From Candidatus Litorirhabdus singularis (lineage in GTDB: Bacteria > Pseudomonadota > Gammaproteobacteria > Pseudomonadales > Halieaceae), in NCBI RefSeq assembly GCF_026262625.1, contig NZ_SHNN01000004.1, positions 62,001 to 126,000 of the forward strand: DNA of 64,000 bases. Reading direction: 5' to 3'. Below are positions 20,732 through 62,888 of the stretch, in pieces. A program made the position numbers and the translations under genes. Under the pieces are notes generated by a model that was not told the DNA's origin, did no database searches, and worked only from the letters and a program-made list of their open reading frames with translations. Numbering within the stretch: position 1 is the stretch's first letter; every line of letters starts with the position of its first letter.

Positions 20732-21156
20732 TGGTTAACCGGAATAATCATTAGAGGCGGCTATGCTAGCCCATATCCGGTGGAATGTCAGGTTGGCAGG
20801 CGCGCACCGCGCGATTTTTAGAACAAAGTTCTCCTGGCGTTGACATTGCATGAAAAACGGTTTGATAATGACAGCAGATCATGTGGTTTGCAGATCAGGC
20901 CGGGAAAAATATTTGAAGATTTTCCAGTCGTCACAGGCACTGGCATTATCTTGGTGATGCCGCTGCTGAAGACGAACCCCAAGGCGCTAATCTTACGCGC
21001 TTCTCTTGAGCTTCCCCCGCTCGGGCCCCCATCGCGCCAACATTTGCTACATTTTGATCTCTACAAGCGTCATTACCCTTTGCCCAAAAAGGTTTTACGC
21101 CGGCCTTTTTATGCGCAAACACTTATTCCAAAACCCACTTTCATGAGGATGTATCT
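20732..21156. other. 425-bp intergenic region, probable phoH leader
   Basis: A divergent spacer between the RNase gene and phoH. It contains a sigma-70 promoter candidate at 20840-20869 and then about 290 nt of untranslated leader. Near the end, AAAAAGG at 21087 and CCTTTTT at 21107 form a short inverted repeat. A 114-codon frame crosses this region, but it lacks a ribosome-binding site and protein-like composition and is not called. Confidence 0.5.
20840..20869 (+). promoter_or_regulatory. Sigma-70-type promoter for the phoH transcript
   Basis: TTGACA at 20840-20845 and GATAAT at 20864-20869, separated by 18 bp. It points toward phoH and, because of the insertion, also toward the coupled phoH copy carried by the mobile element. 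Confidence 0.55.
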
Positions 21157-22469
21157 ATGGACTCAGGCGTCGCCTTGCGCGTAGAAGTGCCAGCACCGGC
21201 CAATGTTTCACAAAAAATTTATGTGCTGGATACGAATGTCCTGCTGCATGACCCGACGTCAGTGCTCGCGTTTAAGGAGCATCGTCTGGTGATCCCCATG
21301 ACGGTGCTGGAGGAGCTTGACGATATCAAGGACCGGCGCGATAAGACGGTAAGTCGAGAGGCGCGCATTGCCATTCAGATGATTGACAAGGTAGTGGGTT
21401 CTGCCAGCACGCAGCAGATTCAAGATGGGGTGCCGATTACCGGATCTGTTCTGGACGGTGAACCCGGTCGATTGTCGATCTACCAGGACCAACTGCTGGA
21501 TGACAATACGGCGATACCTTACCTGAACGATACTCATGACAAGGCCAACGATAACCGGATAATTAATGTTGCTCTCCAGCTACAGTCGGCTAACCCGGGG
21601 GCTTTTGTATGCCTGGTTACCAAAGATATTAACATGCGGCTTAAGGCCAAAGGTTCAGGGCTGGAGCATGTAGAAGATTACCGGCGGGACCGAGTGCTGG
21701 ACGATATTGACCTGCTGGCGCGTGGGTATGAGGCGATGCCAGGTAACTTCTGGGATGGTATCCGCGATGTTGACACGCTGCGCGAGGGTAATTTGACTTT
21801 GCATAGAGTCTCGCGTGAAGACCTGCCTAACGCCTACCCGAACATGTTTCTTTACGATGACAACGAATTTTTCGCCTATGTTAAGCGGCTCGATGACACG
21901 CATGTCTATCTGCACTGCGATAGCAAGACCAACTTGATGAACCGCAATTTTTGGGGCTTGTCACCGCGCAATCTTGAGCAGGCGATGGCCATGGAGTTGA
22001 TTAATGATGACTCGGTCGATATGACTGTGTTGACGGGTCCAGCTGGTTCCGGAAAAACGCTAATCGCACTGGCTTACGGCCTGCATGCCATTTTAGAACA
22101 AAAAAAGTACACCAAGCTGATCGTCGCCAGATCGACCCCGCCGATTGCCGAAGATATTGGGTTTCTGCCCGGTACCGAAGAAGAGAAAATGGCGCCCTGG
22201 CTGGCGGCTTTTGATGACAACTTGGAGATTTTGCACGGTACCGATGAGTGTAGCAACGGCAGTATTGAGTACGTCAAGGAACGCGCCAATATTCAGTTCA
22301 AGTCGCTGAACTTTATGCGCGGGCGTTCATTCAACAATGCTTACATTATTATTGATGAGAGCCAGGGCTTGACGCAATTCCAGCTTAAGTCGGTCATTAC
22401 CCGGGTGGGCGCAGATTCCAAGATCGTGGTGCTCGGCAACTTGGCGCAGATCGATAACAAATACATCAC

Positions 22470-22474
22470 TCCGC
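22470..22474 (+). repeat. Left copy of the 5-bp direct repeat TCCGC at the insertion junction
   Basis: TCCGC occurs here and at 62765-62769. Joining 22474 to 62770 restores one copy and a continuous phoH reading frame, as expected for site-specific integration with a short crossover region. Confidence 0.85.
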
Positions 22475-22492
22475 ACCCAATTCCTAATTATG
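22475..22492 (+). repeat. Left terminal inverted repeat of the element
   Basis: ACCCAATTCCTAATTATG. The reverse complement of the right end reads ACCCCATTCTTATTATG, differing by two substitutions and one single-base gap. Further GTTACCCC/GGGGTAAC motifs lie just inside (about 22534-22541 and 22602-22609) and GGGTAAC recurs at 62701-62707, possibly extra recombinase-binding sites. Confidence 0.75.
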
Positions 22493-22682
22493 GTGAAAAA
22501 GTGTTACCTCGCCGGTTTTACAGGGCTAGCGCGGGGGTAACAGGAAATAAGAGCAAAGTAATGCCAATGTCGAGTGTTGGATACAATTCAAAATATGCTT
22601 TGTTACCCCTTACTGCCGAAAATGATGGTGTTCATAATGAACATAAGTCGCCATATACAGCAAAGTGCATGGAGGCAGCATA

Positions 22683-24059
22683 ATGATAAATGGGAAAAGT
22701 CATCCACGCGTACTTGATACCAGTGCACTCGTACATGACCCGAAATCGCTGCTTGCATACAGTGACGATGTCTATATTTGCCTGACAGTTTTAGAAGAGC
22801 TGGATAGTCTAAAAGAGAGGATAGATAAATCTGTAAGCGCTGATGCGCGTGCGTGCATCAAGATGCTTGAGGATATTATTAACGGGCATTCTGCTGATGA
22901 GATGGAGATGGGAATTCTGTTGCCCTCTACCGAAACCACTAAAAGAGGCAGGCTCTTCATTGGTATCGATACACAGCTTGAATTTGCAGAAGCGCTTAAA
23001 CATGGTATTGGCAGCGATGCTGACAATAGAATTATTAATTACGCTCTGCATCTACAAAAAAAACTCGGGGAAGATGTTTGTATAGTTACCCGAGATATCA
23101 ATATGCGGCTAAAGGCGCGCACGATTGGTGTCGCGGCAGAGGATGTGCCTGTTGATAATCAGATAACGGATATTGATCTTCTTTATTCAGGCGTGGAGGT
23201 TTTTAAGGGTGATCTGTTTGACCTGCTAGAGAGGGAATCTCAGTTTTCAGTGTCAGACGGTGTCTATCGTTTTGAGCGGTCTTTGTTCAATGATGAAGCC
23301 CAGGTAAATATGTACTGGTATGATGATGTCGGGCATATCGGGAAGATAACTCAAATCGACGAAGATGGCGTTTACTGTGTGTTACTTCCTCCTAAGCAGG
23401 AAAAAATCTGGGGCATAAGCCCAAAAAATCCTCGGCAGGCGATAGCATTGTCTCAATTAACTGATCCGGATTACGATCTAAATATTTTGCTGGGGCCAGC
23501 TGGTTCCGGAAAGACTTTTCTAGCGGTTGCGGCAGCGCTACACGAAGTGGTAGAAACCAAAAAGTACAAAAAAATAGTGGTCGTACGGTCGAGAGATTTC
23601 ATGGACGATGATCCTGGTTTTCTCCCTGGTGATTTGAAAGAAAAATCGATACCGCTAATGGCTGGAATAACGGATGCCTTGATTTCGATGCATGACAGCG
23701 ATGATACAGAGCATGCCACGATGGCGACAGTTGAGCATATTATCGAGAGAGCCAATATTGAATTTACCAGTATGGCCTACTTTAGAGGGCGGTCACTAGA
23801 CAATGCGTTTCTTATCATTGATGAGGCGCAAAATATGACTCGTGCGCAAATGAAAGGAATGTTATCAAGGCAAGGCGCTTCTTCGCGTACGGTTGTTTGT
23901 GGAAACTTAAACCAAGTGGACGACAAGTTTGTAACGGCTCTTTCGAGTGGTGCCAGCGCAGCAGTCAATGTTTATAGGGACTATGAAAAGGGTTCGGTCT
24001 TAATCTTTGATGAGGTGGAGCGTAGTTCTCTTGCTCAGTTTACTGAAGAGAATTTCTGA
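22683..24059 (+). CDS. PIN-PhoH ATPase carried by the mobile element
   Basis: 458 residues and complete. PIN domain start R-V-L-D-T-S-A-L-V-H-D-P, Walker A G-P-A-G-S-G-K-T near residue 271, Walker B A-F-L-I-I-D-E-A-Q-N, and the conserved ending V-E-R-S-S-L-A-Q-F-T-E-E-N-F that the disrupted host copy lost. The start ATG overlaps the host stop (TAATG at 22681-22685), so ribosomes finishing the chimera can reinitiate here. Codon use is visibly more AT-rich than in the host gene, indicating a different origin. It probably compensates for loss of the host PhoH (inference). Confidence 0.9.
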   Translation: MINGKSHPRVLDTSALVHDPKSLLAYSDDVYICLTVLEELDSLKERIDKSVSADARACIKMLEDIINGHSADEMEMGILLPSTETTKRGRLFIGIDTQLEFAEALKHGIGSDADNRIINYALHLQKKLGEDVCIVTRDINMRLKARTIGVAAEDVPVDNQITDIDLLYSGVEVFKGDLFDLLERESQFSVSDGVYRFERSLFNDEAQVNMYWYDDVGHIGKITQIDEDGVYCVLLPPKQEKIWGISPKNPRQAIALSQLTDPDYDLNILLGPAGSGKTFLAVAAALHEVVETKKYKKIVVVRSRDFMDDDPGFLPGDLKEKSIPLMAGITDALISMHDSDDTEHATMATVEHIIERANIEFTSMAYFRGRSLDNAFLIIDEAQNMTRAQMKGMLSRQGASSRTVVCGNLNQVDDKFVTALSSGASAAVNVYRDYEKGSVLIFDEVERSSLAQFTEENF

Positions 24060-48877: not shown

Positions 48878-49357
48878 TTAAGGTTCAGTGATATTGCCCA
48901 CCTTTTCTATCGCTGGCTTCTGGACGCTTCCATGTGCGTAAAAAATTTCCGCGCTCTCTGTTCCTTGAATAATGAGAATCATCGCCCTGGGGGGAAGTTG
49001 AGATAGCCACTCGTTCCTATCTAGGGGGGAAGGTGAGGGAATGGGCTCCGGGTGAGTGTGCCACTCACCCAAATACGTAATCTCGCCTCCTGACTTTTCC
49101 CACCATTGGTCAGCAATTTTTTGATGATGACCTGCTGCTCGCGAGAAACTGTATTTCGTTGCTATGTCATGTTTGCCCGGGTAGGTGGCAGCCACGATCT
49201 CTATATGTGATCCTCGATACCGTCCTAATAATACTCCCCCCGCTTCATTCTGGTCTTGTCTTTGTGCATAGCTGTCGATGCTACTTCTCACGGCACCAGA
49301 GATTAGAAGAAGCCCACCATTGGTTAGGTGTGCCACTAGGTCTGGCAGCATGGACAT
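48878..49357 (-). CDS. cap3: CBASS Cap3: JAB/MPN isopeptidase
   Basis: 159 residues. A complete JAMM metalloprotease site is visible: Glu in E-A-G-G-V-L-L-G (residues 38-45) and H-T-H-P-E-P-I-P-S-P-S-P-L-D (H-x-H-x7-S-x2-D). In type II CBASS, Cap3 cuts the bond that Cap2 makes between the CD-NTase C-terminus and its targets, resetting the system. It overlaps cap2 by 22 nt and is the last gene of the operon. Confidence 0.9.
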   Translation of the reverse strand: MSMLPDLVAHLTNGGLLLISGAVRSSIDSYAQRQDQNEAGGVLLGRYRGSHIEIVAATYPGKHDIATKYSFSRAAGHHQKIADQWWEKSGGEITYLGEWHTHPEPIPSPSPLDRNEWLSQLPPRAMILIIQGTESAEIFYAHGSVQKPAIEKVGNITEP

Positions 49358-51108
49358 TCCTTCAGGGGCTTGAGGTCAGCACTCTTTGTGTCGCAGGCTC
49401 TTGGATCGAGGGAAATATGCCTGAAGCGAGGGGCCGGTGAATTGTTAATCCAGTCAAGACTTTGAGCTTGAGCTAGGCCCGCCGCAGTTACCGATGCTTG
49501 CGTAGGAAATGGTAGAAAGCCTCCGATCCCGCAGGGCCTAGGTTGCCATGAAGGAATTTCTACTCCGTTTTTAAATAGCTGAAATCTTTCCCCAATTTTC
49601 CCTGTCGAGTCTCTAGTTTTTAGGCATGCATAACATGCAAGACCACTGCCTGGTTGATCGAGTAATGTTCTCGCCGCGAGACCACCCGCGTCAATCCAGC
49701 CATAGAGAACAGGTACCATGTATTCACTACGATGAGCCTCGTGGCAGAGTGACGTGGAAAAGGTAATTTCTCCAGTTGTGTCCACCACCAGGTCGTATTG
49801 TTTCGCGAAAGCCTCATACTCGCAGGGATCAACCTTGCTTGGAATCGCATGCACGCAGCCTCCCACAGGGGGGTTGTCATTCAGTTCGGTTGCTAGGGCA
49901 GTGGCCTTGTTCTGACCAAGGTATCTACTAGACAATAGATGCCGACCGAGATTTTCTGGATGAAGTTCATCTGCATCATACAGTGCGAGCGAACCACCAC
50001 CCGTTCCGGCGCCGGCATGTTGAAGTAGCGAAGCTACATATCCGCCCAGTGTGCCACAACCGATCACGGCAATGTTTATTGTGGAAAGGTTTCGCTCGTA
50101 AACCAAATTTCTTGTGTAGACTGTGCTGGCTCGAACGTCCCTGACATTTAGTCGTTGAAATGTATCAGCGGACTCGTACTTCTGGAGGCTAGATAACAGT
50201 GAGACTTTTCGATGAAGTGGGACATCAAGCTTTTTCTGTCGTCCACGTCTACCAGGTCGGGTGCGTTTGAACTTTTCGCGTATCACTCTCCGGCTTCTAT
50301 TTGATCTAAATGAAAGTAAGCCACCAAGAAACATGCCTTGAAGCTGAAAAATGAAGAAACAAGAGCTGCTAGTCGCTATATGTTCGAACGCCTGAGTGAC
50401 CAGCCTCTGATAAGAAGCCTGATGGCCAGAAGCCTTTAGCCAGGCCGCGACATGAGTGAACTGCGTTGGCGGCCAATCTTTATCGGGTATTTCAATATCG
50501 GTTGGTAGCGAAACTATGACTGCGTGCCCCGTTCCTATCTGCTCGGCGTTCTGCCTTTTTCTTCTCCAATCTCGAGTTCCTGTGGCGTCATCAGCCACGA
50601 TAATTTCGCCAAGCTTTGTTCCAGCAGGATCAAGATAGTGAAAATACTCGTATACAATGTTTTTAGAGGATTCAGCCGCTAAATAAACAAGTTCCTCATT
50701 ATTTTGTTGCCAATAGGCTGGCAGTTCTCTTCTAAATTCCTGCTGTAAAAGTTCTGGCTTGGTCGCGTACTGATCCAGTAAATGATGTAATGATGCCAAT
50801 ACGAGCGTGATGTTACCCACAGGGTCGTATCTGTCGAACTCGGCCCCCTGATCATCCAGGTAGCATAGATGCTTGTCGGCAAATACGTGGGGTAAGCGAG
50901 TGGGAAGCGAATCGGGCTTTGAAAGCAGAATTACGTCGGGTTTCCGAACAAAAAACGGGTCGAAAATTTCTATTTGGATCGGAAAATCTAAGTCAGACTT
51001 ACTAAGTACTCCGCCGTAAATGTGTTTAGAGATAGAAGCTGAGCGCCTGAAACCATTGGCAGCAAGCACAAAGTGGATGCTTTGAAGGCAGACCGTCTCG
51101 TCACTCAT
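49336..51108 (-). CDS. cap2: CBASS Cap2: fused E2-E1 conjugation enzyme
   Basis: 590 residues. The N-terminal E2-like domain has a candidate catalytic Cys in A-D-K-H-L-C-Y-L-D-D near residue 82. The C-terminal half is a ThiF/E1 adenylation domain with N-I-A-V-I-G-C-G-T-L-G-G near residue 347 and Y-D-A-D-E-L-H-P-E-N; Cys pairs near the C-terminus (A-C-Y-A-C, C-P-C-C) complete it. Cap2 ligates the CD-NTase to partners and primes it for signalling. Its start overlaps the CD-NTase stop by one base. Confidence 0.9.
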   Translation of the reverse strand: MSDETVCLQSIHFVLAANGFRRSASISKHIYGGVLSKSDLDFPIQIEIFDPFFVRKPDVILLSKPDSLPTRLPHVFADKHLCYLDDQGAEFDRYDPVGNITLVLASLHHLLDQYATKPELLQQEFRRELPAYWQQNNEELVYLAAESSKNIVYEYFHYLDPAGTKLGEIIVADDATGTRDWRRKRQNAEQIGTGHAVIVSLPTDIEIPDKDWPPTQFTHVAAWLKASGHQASYQRLVTQAFEHIATSSSCFFIFQLQGMFLGGLLSFRSNRSRRVIREKFKRTRPGRRGRQKKLDVPLHRKVSLLSSLQKYESADTFQRLNVRDVRASTVYTRNLVYERNLSTINIAVIGCGTLGGYVASLLQHAGAGTGGGSLALYDADELHPENLGRHLLSSRYLGQNKATALATELNDNPPVGGCVHAIPSKVDPCEYEAFAKQYDLVVDTTGEITFSTSLCHEAHRSEYMVPVLYGWIDAGGLAARTLLDQPGSGLACYACLKTRDSTGKIGERFQLFKNGVEIPSWQPRPCGIGGFLPFPTQASVTAAGLAQAQSLDWINNSPAPRFRHISLDPRACDTKSADLKPLKECPCCQT

Positions 51109-52307
51109 CAGCCAGATCTGTGTCCAGAACGCATGGTGCCGATTTCCGGTTCAGGCTGTGCATCGATAGGTGTTGATGTGACGACCGCTGCTGCAATCGC
51201 CCCCGCCAAAGAGACCCAATCTGGTCGCCGCGGAAAACGATCACCCCAGTATAGCCTGAAAATATCCACGACCTGGATTGGAGAGCTTGCTTGCTGAAGT
51301 GCACCCACCACATCAGTTGATAGTTGATTAGCGGCCCGAATAATTTCCGCGATTTGTTCGGGTGACACGTTGCGGGGAAATATGATTTCCTTTTCCGAGA
51401 CGGGGTTGCGAACATCCACTGAGAGCTTCTCGGGCAGTGCTTTCACAACCTGAAGCAAAGCGTCGCTATCGGAGTAAAACTCTCTGTCAGAGTCTCTAAA
51501 GACTTCCCAAGTGCAGATCATCAGCGCTATTGAAGTCGGTCCACCACTAGGCCATGTATTGTCGCGCCAGGCTTTCAGGTAGCGACAGACGTTGGTAAGG
51601 CGCTCGCCAAACACGATCTGTTCATTCTCAAACCAGGCTTGAATCTGGATGGGATCGCTTTCCACCCAGTGCCCTGTGTCCCTGAGAGCGAGGTACACCT
51701 TTTCTCCGGCCAGCATTCGCCGAAGGCTAAGGTCATCCGATTCATTCAAAACGGACCTTTTCAGTGTAGAGCGGCCGGCGGCTTTCTGGAGGTCATCAAA
51801 CTTCTCTACAGGTATGGCATAGAGAGGGACATCGATATGGATGTCATGCGATATCTCCAGTCGTGCGCATGTGTTCTTTTCTATGAAGCGCCACCCCTGC
51901 TCACGGGCGAGTTCTTTCAGGGCTTCGTCAACAATACTAAAAAATATTTCTTTATTGACGATAGGTCTATCTCGCATGGCCTCTAGGGGGAGGTAAACAC
52001 CGTCGTCAAGATCTAGTTGCTGCGGTGGAATTTGAGCTGGTACATTTTGGGTTCCATAGGCAAAGGAGCCCTGAGGCCAGAACCTGGGCTCAATATTCTG
52101 GAATACCTGCCTATCTGTCTCCTCCATTCGGCACAAGTATTCATCGTTTGATTTTGCTCGGGTAAATGCGGATTTCAGTGTATTCCTTACTTTGGTCCTC
52201 GCGTCTTTCATAAGCGCGAGCTGGCTATCATCAACATCTAGTTCATTGATAAATCTATCGCTCTGAAAGCGCTTGACCAACAAATCACTAACGTCATACT
52301 TCGGCAT
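51108..52307 (-). CDS. dncV: CBASS DncV-like CD-NTase (cyclic dinucleotide synthase)
   Basis: 399 residues. Nucleotidyltransferase core: W-P-Q-G-S-F-A-Y-G-T (residues 77-86), Q-L-D-L-D-D-G-V-Y-L-P with the metal-binding D-x-D, and a third Asp in H-I-D-V-P-L-Y. This closely follows V. cholerae DncV (clade A), which makes 3',3'-cGAMP on phage infection; the product here is inferred from that likeness. The protein ends in ...R-S-G-H-R-S-G, and a terminal Gly is what Cap2 needs for conjugation. Confidence 0.9.
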   Translation of the reverse strand: MPKYDVSDLLVKRFQSDRFINELDVDDSQLALMKDARTKVRNTLKSAFTRAKSNDEYLCRMEETDRQVFQNIEPRFWPQGSFAYGTQNVPAQIPPQQLDLDDGVYLPLEAMRDRPIVNKEIFFSIVDEALKELAREQGWRFIEKNTCARLEISHDIHIDVPLYAIPVEKFDDLQKAAGRSTLKRSVLNESDDLSLRRMLAGEKVYLALRDTGHWVESDPIQIQAWFENEQIVFGERLTNVCRYLKAWRDNTWPSGGPTSIALMICTWEVFRDSDREFYSDSDALLQVVKALPEKLSVDVRNPVSEKEIIFPRNVSPEQIAEIIRAANQLSTDVVGALQQASSPIQVVDIFRLYWGDRFPRRPDWVSLAGAIAAAVVTSTPIDAQPEPEIGTMRSGHRSG

Positions 52308-52319
52308 GCATCTTCTCCT

Positions 52320-53330
52320 TTACGGCTCGTGTGGGCCCGTGATCGGCCGCACGGATGCGGTATGTTGGAATAGTTCGATAATTTCCTTGTCGTTCACGCG
52401 CTGGCCAGCTCTATTCCTGGCATGCCCGCGTAGTATTTCCGCTGCAGCATCAGAGCCGTTATCGAGTGATAGGAGATTGGCTTGCTGCTCGGTGGCTTCG
52501 CTGTCGATGATTTCTAGGCGGCTGTCGAGCAGCATGCGCGCCATATCAAAATGCAGCTGCTCGCCAATAGACATCGACAGACTTATTATGTCCTTACCAA
52601 ATCCCCAGCCTTTATAGCCGAGATCGAGAGGCTTCTCGTGATTGACAGCCAGTCCCTGCCCCATGTTTCCGATACACAACCCTGATATTTGCTCCAACTG
52701 CGCACCACATGCTCTGCGAAGTTCGACTATTCCCATCAGGATTGGGTTGTTTGCGGCTAGCCCGCCGTCAACAAATCTATCTCCTTCGATGGAGTGGATA
52801 GGAAAGTACGTGGGTGCAGCACTGGTGGCCAGCGCGACATCAACCAGTGTTCTCGCGCCATCCTGGTAAAACATCGAATTGTGGGGCGTTTTGAATGCCC
52901 GCATTCGCCCCACTGTGTAGTTGATTGCAGGTATGAGCGCACAGCTGGCTAGATCTTTAACTTTCCGCTCGTCGAAAATATCCTCAAGCGCAGATTTAAG
53001 CGGACCCGCTTGATACTGAGCATTCCTGATTTGCCCCACATCTTTCTTTGAAAGGCCTAGCCGCCAAAATCTCTCGGTTGTGTGGTTGTCTGGAAATGGA
53101 GGGAAGATATTCTTACGATGCTTTTCGAATGTAGCCAAGATAGCCGAAGCGGGGATATGGGCAGCGAGCCCTAGCGCCAGAATGCCGCCAATCGAGGTTC
53201 CACAGATCATGTCGAAGCATGACGCGATAGGCACCTTAAATCGCGATTCGAGTTCGGCGAGAACCTGGGCTGTATACACGCCCCTGGCTCCTCCTCCACT
53301 CAAGGCTAGAACTTGATATTTTTGGTCCAT
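52320..53330 (-). CDS. capV: CBASS effector CapV: patatin-like phospholipase
   Basis: 336 residues from ATG 53330. Patatin motifs: oxyanion hole S-G-G-G-A-R-G-V-Y near residue 10, nucleophile elbow G-T-S-I-G-G near residue 44, and catalytic Asp in D-G-G near residue 190. Activated by the cyclic dinucleotide, CapV degrades membrane phospholipids and kills the infected cell. The frame extends to 53399 (ATGs at 53399 and 53366), but the patatin domain starts right after 53330. First gene of the capV-dncV-cap2-cap3 operon, the V. cholerae order; 12 nt separate it from dncV. Confidence 0.9.
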   Translation of the reverse strand: MDQKYQVLALSGGGARGVYTAQVLAELESRFKVPIASCFDMICGTSIGGILALGLAAHIPASAILATFEKHRKNIFPPFPDNHTTERFWRLGLSKKDVGQIRNAQYQAGPLKSALEDIFDERKVKDLASCALIPAINYTVGRMRAFKTPHNSMFYQDGARTLVDVALATSAAPTYFPIHSIEGDRFVDGGLAANNPILMGIVELRRACGAQLEQISGLCIGNMGQGLAVNHEKPLDLGYKGWGFGKDIISLSMSIGEQLHFDMARMLLDSRLEIIDSEATEQQANLLSLDNGSDAAAEILRGHARNRAGQRVNDKEIIELFQHTASVRPITGPHEP

Positions 53331-53471
53331 TATTTTCCACGCAGCCTCTTTTTGGGCATTCCACATACTACATATGGGGGCTTTCCGTTCATATATCAAC
53401 TATATACAGAAAATTAATGGCTCTTTAGAGTGCGGTTGCAGCACTGACCAGTTCGTGGCCGGTGTTTTTCA

Positions 53472-54309: not shown

Positions 54310-55347
54310 CTACGGTAGGTTTCCTAGTACAAAATCCTGTAGTAGCCTTTTTACTCGTTGCTCAGCCATTCTACTGCTTAGCTGCCCAAAACAGAGGGCA
54401 CTAATTCTACGCAGGTTATGCCTGCTCGCGCCCCTCTTCACTTCAATGCTCCAGTCAGAATTGGCATCGGACACCATGGTAATTTGGTGAATTTTCTTAT
54501 TGTGACTGCTACTCCACTGGAAGCCATTCGCCAGCAGTTTTTCATTCCAATTTAGGCGGACTTCCAGCTGCTCTACTGCATGACGAAGGTCCGTGACAGA
54601 TTGAAATCGTTTGTTTGGATCAAGATTCAAACAACGATTAATCAGGGTTCTAATTGGGCGGGTAACAAAGCGCCTGTAGCTTTTCCTATCTGGGTACTTG
54701 CCAGACAGTACGAGTTTCTGCAACTCTGCGGAAGGCACCGGTGGCAGAAAAGCATCTCCATTGACTAAGCGGTACAGTGTGACCCCGCAGGCATAGATTT
54801 CCCCTAGTTCGGAATAAGGATTGCCAATATGCACTTCCGGAGGTACGTGGAGTGTATAAACATAGCCCTTCATTCCGAAGGCGGCTGGATCAACACCCGC
54901 GGGAATTGAAAGTCCAAAATCGGATAGCTTTCCCTCGCCAGTTGTTCCGATAAGAATGTTCGCAGGCTTAATGTCACGGTGAAGTATTGACTGCGAATGA
55001 GAGTATTCCAGCCCTCTGAGTACATCGATCATTATTCGCTTTGCGCGTGAGAGATCTACATAACCACCTTTCGCTTCATCTTCGAGGCTACCTTTCGGCA
55101 AATACTCCATAGCAACATATAGGCGACCATCATCCATTGTTCCGGCTTCTTCGACTTTAACAACATTTGCATGCTCTGCTGCCTTAAGCACCTGGGCCTC
55201 GTGGAAAAAATTCTGGGTGTTTACGACTTTCTCTGGAGGAATTAGCTTTACTGCTCGCTCTGTTTGCAAGCCAGTGTCTATAGCCAACCACACCTCTCCG
55301 AAATACCCCGCGCCCAACCTTTTCTTGAAGTCAAATCCAACTGCCAT
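54310..55347 (-). CDS. Hanks-type Ser/Thr protein kinase with C-terminal extension
   Basis: 345 residues. All kinase motifs are present: G-A-G-Y-F-G-E-V-W (residues 12-20), the Lys in R-A-V-K-L near residue 34, H-R-D-I-K-P-A-N near residue 124, D-F-G near residue 143, and P-P-E in place of A-P-E. The domain ends near 265; the last 80 residues are an unrecognised extension. No membrane helix, so it is cytosolic, unlike PknB-type receptors. It is translationally coupled to the RNase H-fold-like gene upstream (TGATG at 55345-55349), which suggests a two-part system. Confidence 0.88.
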   Translation of the reverse strand: MAVGFDFKKRLGAGYFGEVWLAIDTGLQTERAVKLIPPEKVVNTQNFFHEAQVLKAAEHANVVKVEEAGTMDDGRLYVAMEYLPKGSLEDEAKGGYVDLSRAKRIMIDVLRGLEYSHSQSILHRDIKPANILIGTTGEGKLSDFGLSIPAGVDPAAFGMKGYVYTLHVPPEVHIGNPYSELGEIYACGVTLYRLVNGDAFLPPVPSAELQKLVLSGKYPDRKSYRRFVTRPIRTLINRCLNLDPNKRFQSVTDLRHAVEQLEVRLNWNEKLLANGFQWSSSHNKKIHQITMVSDANSDWSIEVKRGASRHNLRRISALCFGQLSSRMAEQRVKRLLQDFVLGNLP

Positions 55348-55820
55348 CAGAGAAGTTCACTCCATGCGGATAGAATGGCGTCTTTCTCTTTATCACCATA
55401 ATCTGAAAAATTTGGAATCATGCTGGTGTCCAGCTCGGTTTTTAGCAATTTAGCCTTTCCTTTTAGTCCAAGGTCTTTTGCAAGCGTGGAACCCATCTTT
55501 TTGTAGACGGCCTTAAGACCAACATTTGCTGCGGCTATGTATGCCGTCGCCTCATTCTCTACCCGTTCCTCGAACGTATTTCCCTTTGAGCGCCCCTCAA
55601 ATCGTTTTATCGTGACTATGGAAATCCCTTCGTGCCTAGCAAATATTCCGTCAATTTCTTGAACGAGCCATTTAAGAGTCTGTGATCTATGGAATCCTTT
55701 TGGGCATACTACAGTGCTCAGTTCAACAATGTTAGGACTTGCTTTTGTCGAGTCCATGACGGCAAACGTGTAGTCCGAGTTACTAAATCGCAGGCCTAGT
55801 GAAATCCGTTTCTTTGCCAT
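55347..55820 (-). CDS. Small RNase H-fold-like protein paired with the kinase
   Basis: 157 residues. Its order of elements (I-S-L-G-L-R-F start, V-T-I-K-R-F-E-G-R-S-K-G-N centre, closing G-D-K-E-K-D-A-I-L-S-A-W) recalls the RuvC/RNase H-like fold and in particular DUF3010-type proteins; this is recalled from pattern, not aligned. Full catalytic acids are not evident, so it may be a binding rather than a cutting domain. It shares one base with the kinase start. Function unknown. Confidence 0.55.
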   Translation of the reverse strand: MAKKRISLGLRFSNSDYTFAVMDSTKASPNIVELSTVVCPKGFHRSQTLKWLVQEIDGIFARHEGISIVTIKRFEGRSKGNTFEERVENEATAYIAAANVGLKAVYKKMGSTLAKDLGLKGKAKLLKTELDTSMIPNFSDYGDKEKDAILSAWSELL

Positions 55821-55958: not shown

Positions 55959-56417
55959 CTATTTCTCTTTGTTAGGTTTGATAGGGATTAACTCGCCTGT
56001 ATCAGTATCTATTTCCGTATGATACTTTACTCTAAGTTCAGAGCGTAATAGATCGTTGAATCGGTACATCTCAGTTAGGCTGACAATCAGTTTCTTCTCG
56101 TTATCCTTGAGCTCCACCGGTTCGAGTTCTGCCAGACGTTCTTTTAGTTGGCTGTTTTTCTCGGATGCGCTGTGAAGTCGGGCCTCGAGAGAAGCGATTT
56201 TATCATTGGCCGCCTGCTCTTCAAGTTCAGACTTCCTTGTTGCCTCTGCGTCTTCGATTTCGCCTCGAATGTCCTCGTAAGCGCTCTTTCGAAAGAGCGT
56301 GTGACTTACGCCAGCTTTTTTCGCGACTGTGTTCTTATTGATCTTCGCATGGGGCTGATTTTTAAGCTCGCAAAGAGCTTTTTTGAGTAAATCTTTTGCA
56401 GTCAGGTCTGAACTCAT
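55959..56417 (-). CDS. Small HTH/coiled-coil recombination accessory protein (TnpC/GmtX-like)
   Basis: 152 residues. An N-terminal HTH (N-T-V-A-K-K-A-G-V-S-H-T-L-F-R-K near residue 28) is followed by a coiled coil (residues 60-120). It overlaps the preceding recombinase gene by 4 nt and is the last gene of the operon. Its layout fits TnpC of Tn554 and the small third protein of related trio modules, which assist or bias integration. Confidence 0.65.
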   Translation of the reverse strand: MSSDLTAKDLLKKALCELKNQPHAKINKNTVAKKAGVSHTLFRKSAYEDIRGEIEDAEATRKSELEEQAANDKIASLEARLHSASEKNSQLKERLAELEPVELKDNEKKLIVSLTEMYRFNDLLRSELRVKYHTEIDTDTGELIPIKPNKEK

Positions 56418-58468
56418 GACGTAGTCTCCACTATGAGTGGGTTGCTATCCGTCAAAATGATCGAAGCGGCCTTGCTGGTGTTTTTCCAGCTTTGAGCGAG
56501 TAATTCGAAATCGGCTTGTTTGCTAGCCGGTAACTCGTAATATACAGCGAGTTTTCTATCAGCAAAACCTTTCATGGCTCGCCAATGAACACGCTGACGC
56601 TCAGTAACGACATAGTTAGGACAGTAAACGCAGCCACTAGGTATCCCTACATTTTTTAACTTACAATCGGAGCCGCCAGTGCAGTAGCCATGGGGTAATC
56701 CGCGTATATCACGAATATTCTGTACCAGAAAGTTAGCGTAGGCGTTTAAGTCTTTGAAGTGTATTTGTTTGATTGTGCGACCGGTGCTGCTGGCTTCTGT
56801 TGCTTTGACCGAGAATACGAGTTCCTTTGCACCTTTGTTAAGTATTTCGCCACCAGCGCCCTTCAAGACACCTTCGGAGGCCTCCTGTGCAATCTCTTGT
56901 GCAATATTATCGACGAGCAACTCTTGAAAGTCTTCGAATAGGCCTATTAGTTCATCTGCGGTTTCATAGCCACGCGCTGTATAAACCAACGTCATAGAGC
57001 TGGCCAGATGTTTGTACTGATGTTTGATGTCATCCAAATCACCGAGTCGATTAGCAATAATAAACCAGGCGAAAGTATGGCGGAACATATGTGAAGTGAT
57101 GTTGAACTCGCTGCCAGCGCTATACTTATCGCCGCGTTTGTTCCCGCGTGTGGATTTGTAGTTACAGCCTAGGGACTCAAGTTGATCGATGTCTTGTGTG
57201 GTCAATGTAAATCGTAAATGATGTAACGAAAACTTGGAGGCTTTTGACGGATCGTTTGATTCACTACCCAGTCTAGCCTCTGTAAAGTTAATGGATGTAA
57301 GGTTGTCTGCAACTCCAAAGAGAAGCTTACGCTTGAGCCCTTCTGTCAGTCGGTGCTTTAGCTCTGTAGGTAGTACGTCACTATGCTTTTCCAAGATAAT
57401 TTCAGCCCTTTTATGCATTGCGAGAACGTAGCGCTCTAATAGCGTAACTGCATCGTAGGTATCCTGATTTGCTACCCATAGCATCACAACTTCGCTCTCG
57501 TCAGTTTTCGTGAGGGTGGCCTCAATGTAAAACCGCCCATCTTTCCTTTTGGCGCAGCCTATTTTGCAGGACAAAGCTTCTTCCTTACGCATTCCTGTGT
57601 AAGCCAATATGTATACCAGCACATAGAGTTTTAGGTTGTCGAATGCGAGATAGCCTTCTTTCAGTCTGCTGTTAAATTTCTCGCCTAGGCCTACCCTGAC
57701 CAAACTAGAAGTGTTGCTTACGGGCTTGCATACTCGTGCTTGTGCAAGAGCTTCGATATAATGAGTATTAATGGAGTCCCATGCTTCGAACGCAGCGCTT
57801 GCCTCGTGCAAGCGCCTCTCACACTGAGCGATTACTTGTTTCAAAATGCTGGATGGGATGATGGGGTGGGATAAGACTACTTGCTTCCTGTTGAGATCAA
57901 TGCCATGTCTCGCTATTTCATCCCAGAATATTTCACAGGTCCTTGGAGTCAGAAGACCGTAATTCAAGTGCTCTTGAAAAAACCTGAATTGGTGAGTGTA
58001 GATCTGATCCCCTTCTCCGAGCCTCAATACATCGCAAATAAAGTTAACAATATGGTTTCGGATAATCAGTTCAGGTAAAGTATTAAATTCAGCTAAGGAT
58101 GCAATATCTTTGTCTTTTAAATAGCTTCCTAGTTTGATTGCGGGGGCAGCTTGTAGAGTGACGCTGTCAAATTTTTGTCCGTTTCCACCTTCATACAACC
58201 CAACGTTAGATGCTAGTAAAACAGCGGCTTTGATTTCATGTTTTGTTTGGATGGGAAGCCCTGAGAAGTCCACAGAGCGCTTTGCGTTCTCTCTCCATAT
58301 ATCGTCACCAAAACGGACGTCTCCGTGAAGAAAATGATTCAAACTAGTGACACTTGCAATAGGAACGGACTGTACTAGTTGATGGTCGATATCACTATAG
58401 GGAGTAATTGTCAGCAGCCCGGTCTCGTCTGGTTCTGCTATCTGCTCCATCAAGTCAATCAGATTCAT
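56414..58468 (-). CDS. Tyrosine recombinase (TnpB-like), 684 aa
   Basis: A large recombinase with a complete catalytic set in the C-terminal half: Arg in A-Y-T-G-M-R-K-E-E-A near residue 295, H-M-F-R-H near 460, His in Y-K-H-L-A and Tyr in L-V-Y-T-A-R near 490. A Cys-rich patch near residue 600 (C-T-G-G-S-D-C-K, G-C-V-Y-C-P-N-Y) looks like a zinc site, as in TnpB-type proteins. It likely acts with the upstream recombinase during insertion into phoH. It starts 4 nt after the 934-aa gene. Confidence 0.85.
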   Translation of the reverse strand: MNLIDLMEQIAEPDETGLLTITPYSDIDHQLVQSVPIASVTSLNHFLHGDVRFGDDIWRENAKRSVDFSGLPIQTKHEIKAAVLLASNVGLYEGGNGQKFDSVTLQAAPAIKLGSYLKDKDIASLAEFNTLPELIIRNHIVNFICDVLRLGEGDQIYTHQFRFFQEHLNYGLLTPRTCEIFWDEIARHGIDLNRKQVVLSHPIIPSSILKQVIAQCERRLHEASAAFEAWDSINTHYIEALAQARVCKPVSNTSSLVRVGLGEKFNSRLKEGYLAFDNLKLYVLVYILAYTGMRKEEALSCKIGCAKRKDGRFYIEATLTKTDESEVVMLWVANQDTYDAVTLLERYVLAMHKRAEIILEKHSDVLPTELKHRLTEGLKRKLLFGVADNLTSINFTEARLGSESNDPSKASKFSLHHLRFTLTTQDIDQLESLGCNYKSTRGNKRGDKYSAGSEFNITSHMFRHTFAWFIIANRLGDLDDIKHQYKHLASSMTLVYTARGYETADELIGLFEDFQELLVDNIAQEIAQEASEGVLKGAGGEILNKGAKELVFSVKATEASSTGRTIKQIHFKDLNAYANFLVQNIRDIRGLPHGYCTGGSDCKLKNVGIPSGCVYCPNYVVTERQRVHWRAMKGFADRKLAVYYELPASKQADFELLAQSWKNTSKAASIILTDSNPLIVETTS

Positions 58469-58472
58469 TGTG

Positions 58473-61277
58473 TCACCCGGTTTCTGCTAAAAGCGCCCAA
58501 TCTTCATGGCACCCTTTTGTTTTCATTAACTGTTTTCCGCTACTTATGGCATCACTATTGATGGCAGCAAGATCCTCTAGTATTTCGTCAACACGTTTTT
58601 CCAGCTCATCAATGTACCTGGCCTGGTCAGTGACTTCTTCGTAATCCGATACAGCGCGTTGCATTTCACCGACAATGTACTCTTTGTAGGATAACAGGCG
58701 CCACACGTGTTCTGCATCGGCGATAACCCGGAAGTGGCGACAGAACAAGCAAGCGTTGAAGTCCGAGCAACGAGGGCTTTCATTGTCGACCTCTTTGTTT
58801 AGGTGTTTGTGTGTATTGAGATAGGCGATAGCTTCAGCATCATTTCCTTGCGATGTGCAGCGCCCACTAGGCGTCTGTTTAGAATCGTCAGGTATATCTG
58901 TAACAATAATAATATCATCTGAAATTGGTCTCCCGGTGAAATAGTTCGCCATGATGCTTGTGGCTGAAGATAGGGTTTCCTCTGAACGAATTCCATTATC
59001 ACGAAGATAAACATCCAGGAAAACTTTTAGCGAATGTTGCCCCGCCTTTTTGTATTCTTTGAAGTTTCTGGAAAACTGTTTGTAAATATAATTGAGTCCA
59101 CCCTTTCTGATGCGCTGACAGTTGAATTGAATGTTACATTCGTTTCGTCTAAGTATAATGTTAAGCTTCGATGTAAAATTCTTAAAACTGAATCCACGCA
59201 CTTTTCCCTTAGTGTCAATGTATAGTGGTAGTCGATATTTGAGCTTGCTTTTTTCGGGTAATTCCCCGCGTATGTCCGATGGAAAATTATCTCGGATAGC
59301 TTTAAGGTCGCGTAGGGCGTTGGTCACTTCAGTGCCGAACACTATTCCTTCCTTTTCCAGGTCGTCGGAGCTCATTTCAAATTCATAGAATTGAGTTTCG
59401 TAATCCGCCCGCTTTTTAAAAAGCCTAACAAAGTGTCTAGCTTGGCTAGATGATGAGGTATTTAATTGCAGGATATCATCAACCTCAAGCGTCAATACTG
59501 GTGCAAGGTTCCATCCAGTTTTTATTAGTACTCGCCCTAATCGTAATACTTGCTCATCATGAAGTGATAAATTACGGTCACAAAGAGCAAGCTCTATCGC
59601 ATATGCCAGTGATGCTACATCTTCAATGCTGTAGTAGTCCGACTCTGACAAAGTTCTTTTATGTCGCTCCCTTTTACCGGCTGATACTGCGTAAGACTTA
59701 ACCTCTGCCAATTTGTAATGTTTACAGAGGCGGCTGATAGCAGATTGATACTGTTTGGCGCTGTCAACTGATAGAATATTTTTTTCGAATGCTTCTCTTA
59801 TGCTGTACCGAACTCTCTTAAATATTTTAGAGTTGTTCATCTTTAAAGCGTAGATTCCGTATTCAGAAAGTAACGACATGTCAGTGTCATCTAGATGACT
59901 AAGGTGGTTGAGAAATACGGCCTTAATGGTTGTCACCTGTCCAAAAATCGTAGTTTCTGCTTTGACATCGCCGTCAATGCGGCCCAGCTCGTACGCTGCG
60001 TAGTCAATGATATGTTGAGTTAGTAGGCTGGAGATCTCCGCGATACCAGAAAGATCTATGTTACTGTATTCATCGTCACCCGAATCGCAGGGAACGGACA
60101 CTGTGTACTTTAAGAAGTTGTGGACTCTATGGGATGTTTCATGAAGTGTGTTGTACATTCTGAGAATTTCACCGAACGAATCTCGGGCTCTCTTATCTTC
60201 TATGCCATAGACCGCCAACAAAAGATCCGCATCATGCAACAGGAATGCTTCGATTCCGTGAGTGTTAAGGTCTTCCAAGAATGGTAGGTGCTCTTTGTGA
60301 TCAACCATGGAGCTACTAATTTTGGTCAACCTCGTTATAGCGCTGACGGCCTTTAACTCTCCTTTGTCTTTGTAGACTGCGTCAATATATGTCTGGCATT
60401 GACGGTACCATTTTGGCGAAAGTTGGTAGACCCAGAATGCGCCCTTCGACATGCTTCCAGCGCGTAGATTGTGTTGGTTGCGCTGGGCATGCTTCGCCAC
60501 ATTGCCATGCAGCTTTGGATTGTTAAGTTTCCGAACATTTCCCAGCCGGGAATGGTCACCTCGATTTGTTTGTGAAAGAAGAATTTTGAAGTAGTTGTCA
60601 TCATCTAGAGCATCAGCTAGCACTTGGCCACCACTGACGAAATCATCTACATATGGGTCAAATCTACTCTTGGATAAGGAGGCTTGCATAGCGTGTATTG
60701 AATGCCTATATTTAGCTCCACCTCCGGGTCCGGAAAGTATCTTATCTGCCAGCTCCTTAAAATCGATTATCCAGTTGACTGGGTATGTGTACATTGGGGC
60801 TATGTTAATAGTTGTTCCGAGCATGACCACCCGGCTAGGTGGCCACAGGTCTTGATTCTTTGAATGAGTCTTCGCCAGGTTCGTTATTCCGTTGAGAATT
60901 GAGCCGCCCCGTTGGGTAAGTGTCCTCTCTTCTGCCGCCTCAAATAGATAAAGCTCTTGTTCAATATTCGCCCATTTAGTAGCGTCGTCTAGTAGGGTGA
61001 AGCCTTCATCTATAAAGTTTTGGAAATGAGCTCCTTCACCGGGCTGTTTGAATGACCGAATGTAAACTAGTAGGTCTTTCAGTCGCTCAGCTGTCACATC
61101 GTGGCCTGCGCAGGTCCGTTCAGTGTCAGGCCTGCATGCCTCGGTGAGAATTGTGATCACATCTTGTGCGAACTGTTCCGAGTAGGACTCAAACTCTCGT
61201 ACGAGGGTTAGGCTACGAGGAGGGATCACGACGCATTTACTCGATCCATCACTTCTTGATAGATATCTACTACCCAT
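58473..61277 (-). CDS. Large degenerate recombinase-like protein, 934 aa
   Basis: The second gene of the operon, overlapping the first by 52 nt. A recombinase fold is suggested near residues 600-790: I-K-T-G-W-N-L-A-P-V-L-T-L-E-V-D-D-I has Asn where catalytic Arg is expected; R-I-R-K-G-G-L-N-Y replaces H-x2-R; and A-G-Q-H-S-L-K-V-F-L-D-V-Y keeps the His-Tyr spacing. A Cys/His patch (C-S-D-F-N-A-C-L-F-C-R-H-F near residue 850) parallels the zinc patch of its neighbour. Probably a non-cleaving structural partner. Confidence 0.7.
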   Translation of the reverse strand: MGSRYLSRSDGSSKCVVIPPRSLTLVREFESYSEQFAQDVITILTEACRPDTERTCAGHDVTAERLKDLLVYIRSFKQPGEGAHFQNFIDEGFTLLDDATKWANIEQELYLFEAAEERTLTQRGGSILNGITNLAKTHSKNQDLWPPSRVVMLGTTINIAPMYTYPVNWIIDFKELADKILSGPGGGAKYRHSIHAMQASLSKSRFDPYVDDFVSGGQVLADALDDDNYFKILLSQTNRGDHSRLGNVRKLNNPKLHGNVAKHAQRNQHNLRAGSMSKGAFWVYQLSPKWYRQCQTYIDAVYKDKGELKAVSAITRLTKISSSMVDHKEHLPFLEDLNTHGIEAFLLHDADLLLAVYGIEDKRARDSFGEILRMYNTLHETSHRVHNFLKYTVSVPCDSGDDEYSNIDLSGIAEISSLLTQHIIDYAAYELGRIDGDVKAETTIFGQVTTIKAVFLNHLSHLDDTDMSLLSEYGIYALKMNNSKIFKRVRYSIREAFEKNILSVDSAKQYQSAISRLCKHYKLAEVKSYAVSAGKRERHKRTLSESDYYSIEDVASLAYAIELALCDRNLSLHDEQVLRLGRVLIKTGWNLAPVLTLEVDDILQLNTSSSSQARHFVRLFKKRADYETQFYEFEMSSDDLEKEGIVFGTEVTNALRDLKAIRDNFPSDIRGELPEKSKLKYRLPLYIDTKGKVRGFSFKNFTSKLNIILRRNECNIQFNCQRIRKGGLNYIYKQFSRNFKEYKKAGQHSLKVFLDVYLRDNGIRSEETLSSATSIMANYFTGRPISDDIIIVTDIPDDSKQTPSGRCTSQGNDAEAIAYLNTHKHLNKEVDNESPRCSDFNACLFCRHFRVIADAEHVWRLLSYKEYIVGEMQRAVSDYEEVTDQARYIDELEKRVDEILEDLAAINSDAISSGKQLMKTKGCHEDWALLAETG

Positions 61278-62674
61278 GGCTCCATTGCGCCATGTTTTCC
61301 AGCTTTTCCTTCGAGTGCGAAGTCGAGATAGAGCTGCGTGGTTTTAAATGTTTCATGGGAGAGAAGCAGTATGAGCTTGGCTTTTATTTCGTTTGGCGTG
61401 TAACCCTTTTTTAGAAGGGCGATGGCCCAGTAAGTAGCGAACGTGGCTCGAAGATCGTGGAAGTCTCTGTCTAGTCTTGGTAGTCCACGCTCCTTTAGTT
61501 CTAGGCGACATTTCTGGATAGTATTTGTAACAGTTGACTCTGACATTCGTTCGCCATCGCGATTAATGAATAGTGGAAGCGGATGATCGGGGTTATTCAT
61601 ACCATATCTGGTTTCATGCTTTAGGCGGCGTCTCGTATAGATATCATCTTGAGTATATCCCCAGAGCATCTGCATCAAGGTTGGTGAAATTCTCAGGTTC
61701 GTCGATTTGTCAAATTTGCGAACTAAATTCAGTGAGAAGCTGAAACGATTCTCGGCTGGATCAATAATGTCTTTGTAGTCGATCTGGACAACTTCAAATA
61801 CGCGTAGTCCAGCAAAAAGGGCACACCTTATGAATAGTCCATAGGTTCGGTGAGCATAGATTTTGGTGTTCATCAGTAATCTGAGTTCTTCCGCTGTATA
61901 CGCACTCAAACCTTCGCGTGGGTGACGGCTTTTTCTTTTAGCTGTTTTAGGAATTGACAGGTTGCTCACATAAGACTCGATTGCTCGCATATTCACGGGT
62001 TTAGAGCCAGGCATCGAAAAAGTTGCTTCTGCGTCGTCCTTTCGTTTGACGGAAATTGATTTGAGATGGATAGAAAAGGGAAGGAACTTAACTGTTGACC
62101 TTTTGTATGACCAAAGATAGAACGCTCTTACATTGCTTAATATTCTTTGGCAGCGATTGAATGCCAACTTCTGGCTTTCCACCTGCTTTACTAAAAATTG
62201 TTGAAAACGCCATACTGGCAGTAGGGCTTCAGCTTCGTCGAGACTATTAGGGTCATAGTTTTCCGGGATCGCAATTATTTCCTCATAGGATATGTCCTGT
62301 TCGATCATCCAGTCGAGATACTTCCGTAAGTCTTTTGCAATTGGTATTAGACTCTCGGTCTTCAGCTCCGGGGCTTTTTTGGATGCTAAGTGTCCTTCGC
62401 TCCAGACTCGCTTTTCCGTCTCAGTATGCTTGGATTTTTTGAGCGAGAAGTTGCCGAGCCTACGATCAATTAGGAAAAGGTTGAACTCCATGCATTCTCT
62501 GAGACGATGTGGGCACGACAGTAATGGGAAGTCGGGGAGGATTCTATCCCGGTGATAACGGAGTACGCGTACTGTGTGCTCACCGATATCTCCCTCTACT
62601 AGCTTGCCATCGGTGTTGGTTTCAAAGTACGGCAATGCCCCAAGATTGATTTGCGTTTTTATTATGCGCGTCAT
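61226..62674 (-). CDS. Tyrosine recombinase/integrase (TnpA/GmtY-like), 482 aa
   Basis: The first gene of the recombination operon, 95 bp inside the right end of the element. Catalytic residues are complete: Arg in F-A-G-L-R-V-F-E-V-V near residue 285, H-D-L-R-A-T-F-A near residue 405, His in L-L-S-H-E-T-F-K and Tyr in L-Y-L-D-F near the C-terminus. It is the likely main integrase for the phoH site. Its promoter must lie within 62675-62769, overlapping the right inverted repeat, so expression may depend on whether the element is integrated or circular (inference). Confidence 0.87.
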   Translation of the reverse strand: MTRIIKTQINLGALPYFETNTDGKLVEGDIGEHTVRVLRYHRDRILPDFPLLSCPHRLRECMEFNLFLIDRRLGNFSLKKSKHTETEKRVWSEGHLASKKAPELKTESLIPIAKDLRKYLDWMIEQDISYEEIIAIPENYDPNSLDEAEALLPVWRFQQFLVKQVESQKLAFNRCQRILSNVRAFYLWSYKRSTVKFLPFSIHLKSISVKRKDDAEATFSMPGSKPVNMRAIESYVSNLSIPKTAKRKSRHPREGLSAYTAEELRLLMNTKIYAHRTYGLFIRCALFAGLRVFEVVQIDYKDIIDPAENRFSFSLNLVRKFDKSTNLRISPTLMQMLWGYTQDDIYTRRRLKHETRYGMNNPDHPLPLFINRDGERMSESTVTNTIQKCRLELKERGLPRLDRDFHDLRATFATYWAIALLKKGYTPNEIKAKLILLLSHETFKTTQLYLDFALEGKAGKHGAMEPWVVDIYQEVMDRVNAS

Positions 62675-62761: not shown

Positions 62762-62764
62762 AAG

Positions 62765-62769
62765 TCCGC
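62765..62769 (+). repeat. Right copy of the 5-bp direct repeat TCCGC
   Basis: Pairs with 22470-22474. The phoH reading frame resumes here in the same codon phase (CCG followed by CTG). Confidence 0.85.
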
Positions 62770-62888
62770 TGACGTCGGGGCTGACCTATCTGGTTGAGAA
62801 AACAAAACACTACCCACATGCAGGGATCATGCATGTAAACGGTATAGAGCGCAGCCGCCTGGCGGCGTTTGCGGAGGAAAATTTGTAG
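62769..62888 (+). pseudogene. phoH: Displaced 3' end of the host phoH gene
   Basis: 39 codons plus TAG that complete the PhoH ATPase C-terminus: L-T-S-G-L-T-Y-L-V-E-K at the start and G-I-E-R-S-R-L-A-A-F-A-E-E-N-L at the end, matching the conserved close of the family and of the element-borne copy (V-E-R-S-S-L-A-Q-F-T-E-E-N-F). It has no start codon of its own and is the strongest proof of the insertion. Confidence 0.93.

Follow-up and report, generated by a model that had tools for sequence, protein, structure and literature searches.

Genomic islands that break a conserved gene and bring a substitute for it have been described before. In the RME elements of Vibrio cholerae S24 and V. parahaemolyticus 090-96, as far as the accessible parts of the reports go, an island of ~30 kb lies inside recA, with a complete, divergent and functional recA at one end, the recombinase genes at the other, and flanks that share, or are bordered by, a few bases (PMC4405046; PMC4334540). 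Tn6283 (SE-6283), a four-gene tyrosine-recombinase element in E. coli bcp, carries a homologue 54.8% identical, for which the accessible text suggests compensation and cites the RME parallel (PMC5991714). The principle of break-and-replace is therefore already known from the recA islands, and has been suggested for bcp. Strand-biased circularizing integrative elements (SEs) are characterized, in the part of the account available, by genes in the order catalytic, non-catalytic, catalytic, small, by inverted-repeat ends and by 6-bp spacers (PMC10214605). GInts, in the accessible part of their description, have their four-gene operon at one end, carry large cargo, insert site-specifically into genes by 6-nt staggered cuts, and end in direct imperfect repeats of 10-17 nt; they lie preferentially at gene ends, or drive the target with a promoter of their own (PMC5385486).

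Here we analyse an island in the window, by which we mean the whole 64,000-nucleotide stretch studied (Candidatus Litorirhabdus singularis, contig NZ_SHNN01000004.1, positions 62,001 to 126,000). As in the RME islands, so far as those are described in the text available, a conserved gene is split by an island that carries a complete divergent copy of it. The target, however, is phoH2 and not recA; the RME recA has its own LexA-controlled promoter region (PMC4405046), whereas the copy here overlaps the broken gene; and the Vibrio insertions lie at nearly the same position (494, 491), whereas phoH islands use three or four. Tn6283 sits in another gene, and the accessible text describes no overlap with the broken gene. 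In the literature searched, mostly without subscription papers, we found no phoH as a target of such islands, and the word phoH is absent from the main texts of the GInt (PMC5385486) and SE (PMC10214605) papers. The novelty lies in the target, in several entry points served by a single replacement, in an overlap with the broken gene that is conserved, and in free-standing copies of the replacement.

The broken phoH gene and the element's copy

The host PIN-PhoH reading frame (21157-22683, +) is split at codons 438-439 by an island of 40,289 bases (22474-62762; ~40.3 kb). The 3' part of the gene (62769-62885, ending ...NGIERSRLAAFAEENL) adjoins the recombinase operon at the island's far end, and the flanks, joined with the left spacer, form a single open gene of 478 codons. 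The gene rnr adjoins phoH here, as it does in 28 of 30 loci of relatives. The features of the two ends are:

21157..22467 (+): host PIN-PhoH gene, 5' portion (codons 1-437); above cut-off for PF13638 and PF02562; groups with host genes of its own family
22468..22473 (+): phoH-side 6-bp spacer ACTCCG (our reading), coding T-P, against S-P in all 8 own-family genes compared
22474..22680 (+): end of the element, with inverted repeat CACCCAATTC... and a tail of 69 codons that stays open in the frame of the host gene
22681..22685 (+): TAATG, in which the chimera's stop and the start of the element phoH overlap
22683..24059 (+): element-borne complete PIN-PhoH, 458 aa; PF13638, PF02562; element clade; purifying selection
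62763..62768 (+): recombinase-side 6-bp spacer AGTCCG (our reading); inverted repeat GAATGGGGTA ends at 62762
62769..62888 (+): 3' remnant of the host phoH, codons 440-478 and stop

A preliminary description of this DNA had proposed that the disrupted phoH runs into a foreign tail whose stop overlaps the start of a complete PIN-PhoH gene. Both points are confirmed: 69 codons follow the junction, and at 22681-22685 the stop of the chimera (TAA, 22681-22683) overlaps the ATG at 22683 that opens the 458-aa protein. A small correction concerns the boundary of the element: by our reading the host arm ends at 22467, the spacer occupies 22468-22473 and the element begins at 22474. A host promoter had been placed at 20840; the site is present (11 of 12 bases), but the region holds four such promoter-like sites against 5.5 ± 2.3 in shuffled sequence, so that it gives no evidence of a promoter.

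We compared the spacers with eight own-family host genes chosen from those at hand, whose protein reads I-S-P-L-T-S-G. The right spacer codes S-P and the left T-P; on this comparison the right spacer is probably native host sequence, and the left one was probably brought in with the element. By our reading this agrees with the rule given for SEs, in the text available, that one spacer is native and the other brought in.

The element's protein consists of an N-terminal PIN domain and a C-terminal PhoH ATPase (PF13638, 82.3 bits; PF02562, 161.6 bits; both over cut-off), and it retains the C-terminal E-R-S block that it had been said to keep, ending DEVERSSLAQFTEENF. Against the NCBIfam equivalog NF053827 (cut-off 680) it reaches 156 bits, and the host chimera, with 198 bits, is also below; the element protein is filed as a PIN-PhoH of the PhoH2 type, not as an NF053827 equivalog. 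It is 40% identical to the host protein over 424 columns, and the G+C of its gene is 0.442, against 0.515 for the host phoH and 0.555 for the left flank. With the separate clade described below, these values bear out the earlier statement that the copy is divergent and AT-rich, and the identity and the tree rule out a simple duplication of the host gene. A phage origin was also rejected: the best phage match of the protein (36.8%), viral contigs (31-36%) and plasmids (≤37.7%) are no closer than hosts, although the protein does match a PHROG PhoH family. A third PhoH protein of the genome, on another contig, is presumably of the ordinary YbeZ type, as judged by size and score.

The recombinase operon and the cargo of the island

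At the far end the element carries four genes, listed here from the first to the last:

61226..62674 (-): first gene, 482 aa, catalytic tyrosine recombinase (IntA/GinA-like); PF00589 Phage_integrase, 41 bits
58473..61277 (-): second gene, 934 aa, Tfp-like by order; without family match
56414..58468 (-): third gene, 684 aa, catalytic tyrosine recombinase (IntB-like by order); PF00589, 36.5 bits
55959..56417 (-): fourth gene, 152 aa, Srap/GinD-like by position

Residues R291, H406, R409, H440 and Y449 of the first protein are invariant in 8 aligned rows, and R294, H460, R463, H487 and Y496 of the third in 6, the catalytic assignment being our reading in both cases. The second protein shows no such R-H-R-H-Y set in 7 rows and, at the limits used, matched nothing in Pfam, NCBIfam or PHROG. 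The operon thus has the order intA-tfp-intB-srap with catalytic residues in the first and third proteins only. This gene order matches SEs, to which we liken the island by their published description in so far as it is accessible; the inverted-repeat ends and the 6-bp spacers fit them at site A by our reading and less well at site B. The place of the operon, the large cargo, the site-specific insertion into a gene and the 6-nt staggered cuts are points of likeness to GInts. In GInts, however, as the available text has it, GinA and GinB are catalytic and the third protein (GinC) is without the first catalytic arginine, whereas here the second protein is non-catalytic. The name ginABCD was therefore set aside, the catalytic residues fitting the SE order better. 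In a comparison with an SE-like Vibrio plasmid operon, IntA and IntB align (probabilities of 99.1% and 98.7%) and the second and fourth proteins do not (2.5% and 2.9%), but the second gene of that operon is itself split.

At 24306-46071 the cargo between these ends holds what we take to be metal-resistance genes, with a MerR-type regulator, cation-efflux proteins and a CusA/CzcA-type pump. Near the recombinase operon (48878-53399, -) lie genes for a phospholipase-type effector, an oligonucleotide cyclase, and E1-E2 and JAB proteins, all strong PADLOC matches, which resemble a type II CBASS-like defence set. Directly behind the operon (54310-55820, -) are a Ser/Thr protein kinase, whose best PADLOC match is mad6 of a defence system, and a 157-aa protein.

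Recurrence, entry points and ancestry

When the 482-aa protein was used to scan one genome per species, a single relative was returned, Idiomarina rhizosphaerae (61%); the scan is uninformative on rarity, since it missed a 63% relative found later. In I. rhizosphaerae phoH is broken at the identical place, and the broken part is followed by an element PhoH with 66% identity to ours. Of 246 genomes of the I. rhizosphaerae family, 12 have a match at E ≤ 1e-25, this species among them, as have three of 390 genomes of the order of our organism, its own genome included. Nine of the 14 relatives (G435, G498, G500, G488, G462, G618, G493, G661, G568), all from the I. rhizosphaerae family, have, immediately after the broken host phoH, an element-type PhoH that shares 66-79% identity with ours. 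The other five (G438, G456, G523, G156, G277) have no element-type PhoH and a full-length PhoH2, and their IntA is 33-35% identical. An element-type phoH just inside the phoH-side junction, in the direction of the host gene, is thus present in 10 of 10 inspected phoH islands, and in 0 of 5 related operons elsewhere. Islands at phoH without such a gene were looked for beside similar recombinase operons; among the 10 inspected there was none.

The operons of the five relatives without an element-type PhoH adjoin genes that we read as type I restriction genes. Related four-gene operons at loci L118, L119, L120, L051, L052 and L153 adjoin hsdM-like and short hsdS-like genes, with a second such set on the other side in L118, L119, L051 and L052 and not in L120; L153 has annotated hsd genes on both sides. 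These operons possibly represent another case of break-and-replace, of restriction specificity.

All four operon genes are recognized in the present island (G000) and in G435, G498, G500, G462 and G618. The third gene is interrupted in G493, and in G661, whose island ends are on separate contigs, intA is cut off by the end of its contig. The G500 island contains hardly anything besides phoH and the four operon genes, and its 3' remnant was not found. The recognizable operon is reduced to intA and part of the second gene in G488, and to a piece of intA in G568. The element phoH is open and full-length in all ten islands; in G488 and G568, where the operon is reduced, it has therefore outlasted it.

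Searched by PhoH, at the limits used, the element type was found in 8 genomes out of the 394 from the order of G435 and in one out of 369 from our organism's class, its own. Of 196 family genomes searched with an intact host-type PhoH2, 185 gave matches, and among the matches listed only that of G568 is visibly truncated (32-419 of 497). At least two PhoH2 matches were found in 21 family genomes, of which 8 are islands described here; the other 13, namely G468, G476, G504, G540, G543, G569, G577, G578, G588, G589, G607, G617 and G630, stand outside the count of 10 of 10 and are the likeliest place for counter-examples or further islands. G575 has a single, weak match. A second broken phoH, in G032 (L043 1297-2728), was set aside as an assembly error or pseudogene, being frameshifted near its end without any insert. 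PhoH2 is missing from some genomes of the order and of one genus, so that the gene is not always needed.

In the ten islands three recombinase lineages enter phoH, at Walker A, at Walker B, near sensor I and at the point used in the present island:

Left site A, after codon 437: G000, G435, G498, G500
Left site B, codon 400, immediately ahead of the Walker B aspartate: G618, G493, G568
Left site C, directly after Walker A GPAGSGKT, codon 301: G488, G462, G661
Right junction A: G000, G435, G498, G488
Right junction B: G618, G493, G661
Right junction D, around codon 426, before GNLAQID: G462, G568

By our reading the 6-bp spacer also fits G435 and G498 and fits site B less well; the site-B ends share GTGATTTTA. 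As for direct repeats, TCCGC alone is common to both ends at site A here, and 9 nt at site B in G618. IntA proteins group by right junction, with identities of 44-63% (A), 92-97% (B) and 93% (D) within groups and 36-48% between them; IntA of G500 falls with group A (45-57%), and those of G568 and G661 are partial sequences. The element PhoH is more conserved than the recombinases, at 66-94% identity across the ten islands. At sites A and B and behind Walker A the bases of the element copy differ from those of the host gene, so that the element copy is itself probably no insertion target, and would be immune. Left and right break points are unlike in 4 of 10 islands (G488, G462, G661, G568), the left always being upstream of the right. 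Such ends could arise if one insertion succeeded another and two element phoH copies then recombined; reading through the G488 and G462 islands revealed neither the second operon nor the second element phoH expected under that scheme.

The tail between junction and element gene (61-69 codons) is open in the host frame in 7 of 7 left junctions at sites A and B, where each other forward frame holds 2-8 stops. In dinucleotide shuffles the frequency of an open tail was 1.7% for the present island and 0.35-1.45% for six others, figures that are not independent because the tails are partly homologous. The tails are very unlike in sequence and differ in length by whole codons, which indicates that the conserved thing is the open frame. 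TAATG is kept in 6 of these 7 junctions; in the exception, G500, the stop is TAG and a gap precedes the element gene. The site-C islands (3 of 10) have a shorter tail, a gap and an element gene with its own purine-rich leader, without overlap, and because of this gap overlap coupling is not universal. RNA structure at the overlap is no more stable than in shuffles (z 0.36). The coupling design recurs, then, in 6 of 7 islands and at two different entry points. Transcription from the host promoter, coupled translation and functional rescue are presumed.

A tree built from 57 PhoH2 proteins places the 13 element-type copies in a monophyletic group (100/100), apart from the host copies. The broken host genes, six and our own, group with their own host lineages, our host copy pairing with L026 of its own family; the deeper root is unsure because of long outgroup branches. 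A placement of the second copy in the host lineage was looked for in this tree and was not seen. Values of pN/pS among element copies are 0.05-0.31 (78 pairs, with dS computed for 3 and the rest saturated), and the copies are under purifying selection.

Three genomes of one genus (G719, G738, G835) have an element-type PhoH2 at another place:

L111 6934-8316: free-standing element-type phoH, shared neighbours
L112 11958-13340: the same
L115 13067-14449: the same

Upstream of each lies what we take to be an aldo/keto reductase-like gene. The stretches read contain neither a recombinase operon nor a broken phoH, and the one further PhoH that exceeds the Pfam cut-off in these genomes is of the YbeZ kind. 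Of nine genomes of this genus, three have the element type, two a host-type PhoH2 and four neither (E ≤ 1e-45). The three copies nest beside G568 inside the element clade (97/88), which suggests that here the replacement outlived its island.

Explanations for the element-borne phoH

The arrangement of a broken host phoH followed at TAATG by an element copy is confirmed as real and recurrent, and the gene-replacement strategy proposed in the preliminary description gains support from the copy in 10 of 10 inspected islands, the distinct element clade and the overlap in 6 of 7. We consider it quite likely that the element cuts PhoH2 and supplies a diverged PhoH2 through the start of the broken gene, with expression and rescue as presumed consequences. 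A four-gene tyrosine-recombinase integrative element would enter the coding sequence of the PIN-PhoH (PhoH2) ATPase and remove its C-terminal part. The phoH-side end of the element would serve at once as recombination site, in-frame extension of the host gene and leader of the element PhoH2, a complete diverged protein encoded by the element's first gene. Ribosomes finishing the chimera could restart at TAATG, so that the host promoter would go on supplying the cell with a PhoH2 and the insertion would be cheap. Points that weigh against this reading are the three site-C islands without overlap, the unlike break points of four islands, and the genomes that do without any PhoH2.

Were the gene ordinary cargo, its place beside the host gene would be accidental or the product of recombination between two homologous genes. 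The large cargo does vary, and PhoH genes are common on phages and plasmids, but the contrast between 10 of 10 phoH islands and 0 of 5 other operons, the constant place just inside the phoH-side junction in the direction of the host gene, and the G500 island, where phoH is nearly the sole other content, together with the kept overlap, make this highly unlikely. It is also very unlikely that the gene is part of an addiction or toxin-antitoxin system in which PIN, as an RNase, punishes loss of the island: the PIN domain is there and mycobacterial PhoH2 is tied to toxin-antitoxin biology, yet the domain plan is that of the replaced host gene, no conserved partner gene lies beside the element phoH in the junctions read, and in three genomes the gene is free-standing. 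The protein could instead help recombination, or be a modified PhoH2 that alters host physiology for the element's benefit, as its identity of only ~40% to host copies and its conservation across recombinase lineages might indicate; five related operons manage without it, however, and the G719 group keeps the gene without an operon in the stretches read, so that we regard this too as improbable.

The remaining alternative concerns origin and is compatible with break-and-replace. The G719 group may be the donor, its native gene having been captured by an island, in which case the free-standing copies were not domesticated. In favour of this, the gene of that group is solitary, its neighbours are conserved, and the stretches read hold no recombinase operon; against it, the tree places the three copies within the element clade, beside G568 (97/88), and a host-type PhoH2 is present in two further genomes of the genus. 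The weak root of the element clade does not settle the direction, and we hold the donor role to be possible, if rather unlikely.

Beyond break-and-replace itself, we lean slightly towards a broader reading, in which the element family is built round one host gene: the replacement phoH would be constant, the recombinases would have been retargeted several times within that gene, always to stretches coding ATPase motifs that can hardly change, the end would combine site, tail and ribosome feeder, and the host might finally keep the copy.

With these islands, what were single cases (the recA islands and bcp) become a comparative case of one strategy, in which elements enter conserved coding sequence, usually deemed too costly, and pay with a replacement gene. 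If this is true, mobile elements can replace core genes with foreign alleles, and trees of core genes may be misled; retargeting of the recombinases would be confined to the gene whose replacement is carried; and the islands would be a natural counterpart of engineered disrupt-and-rescue constructs.
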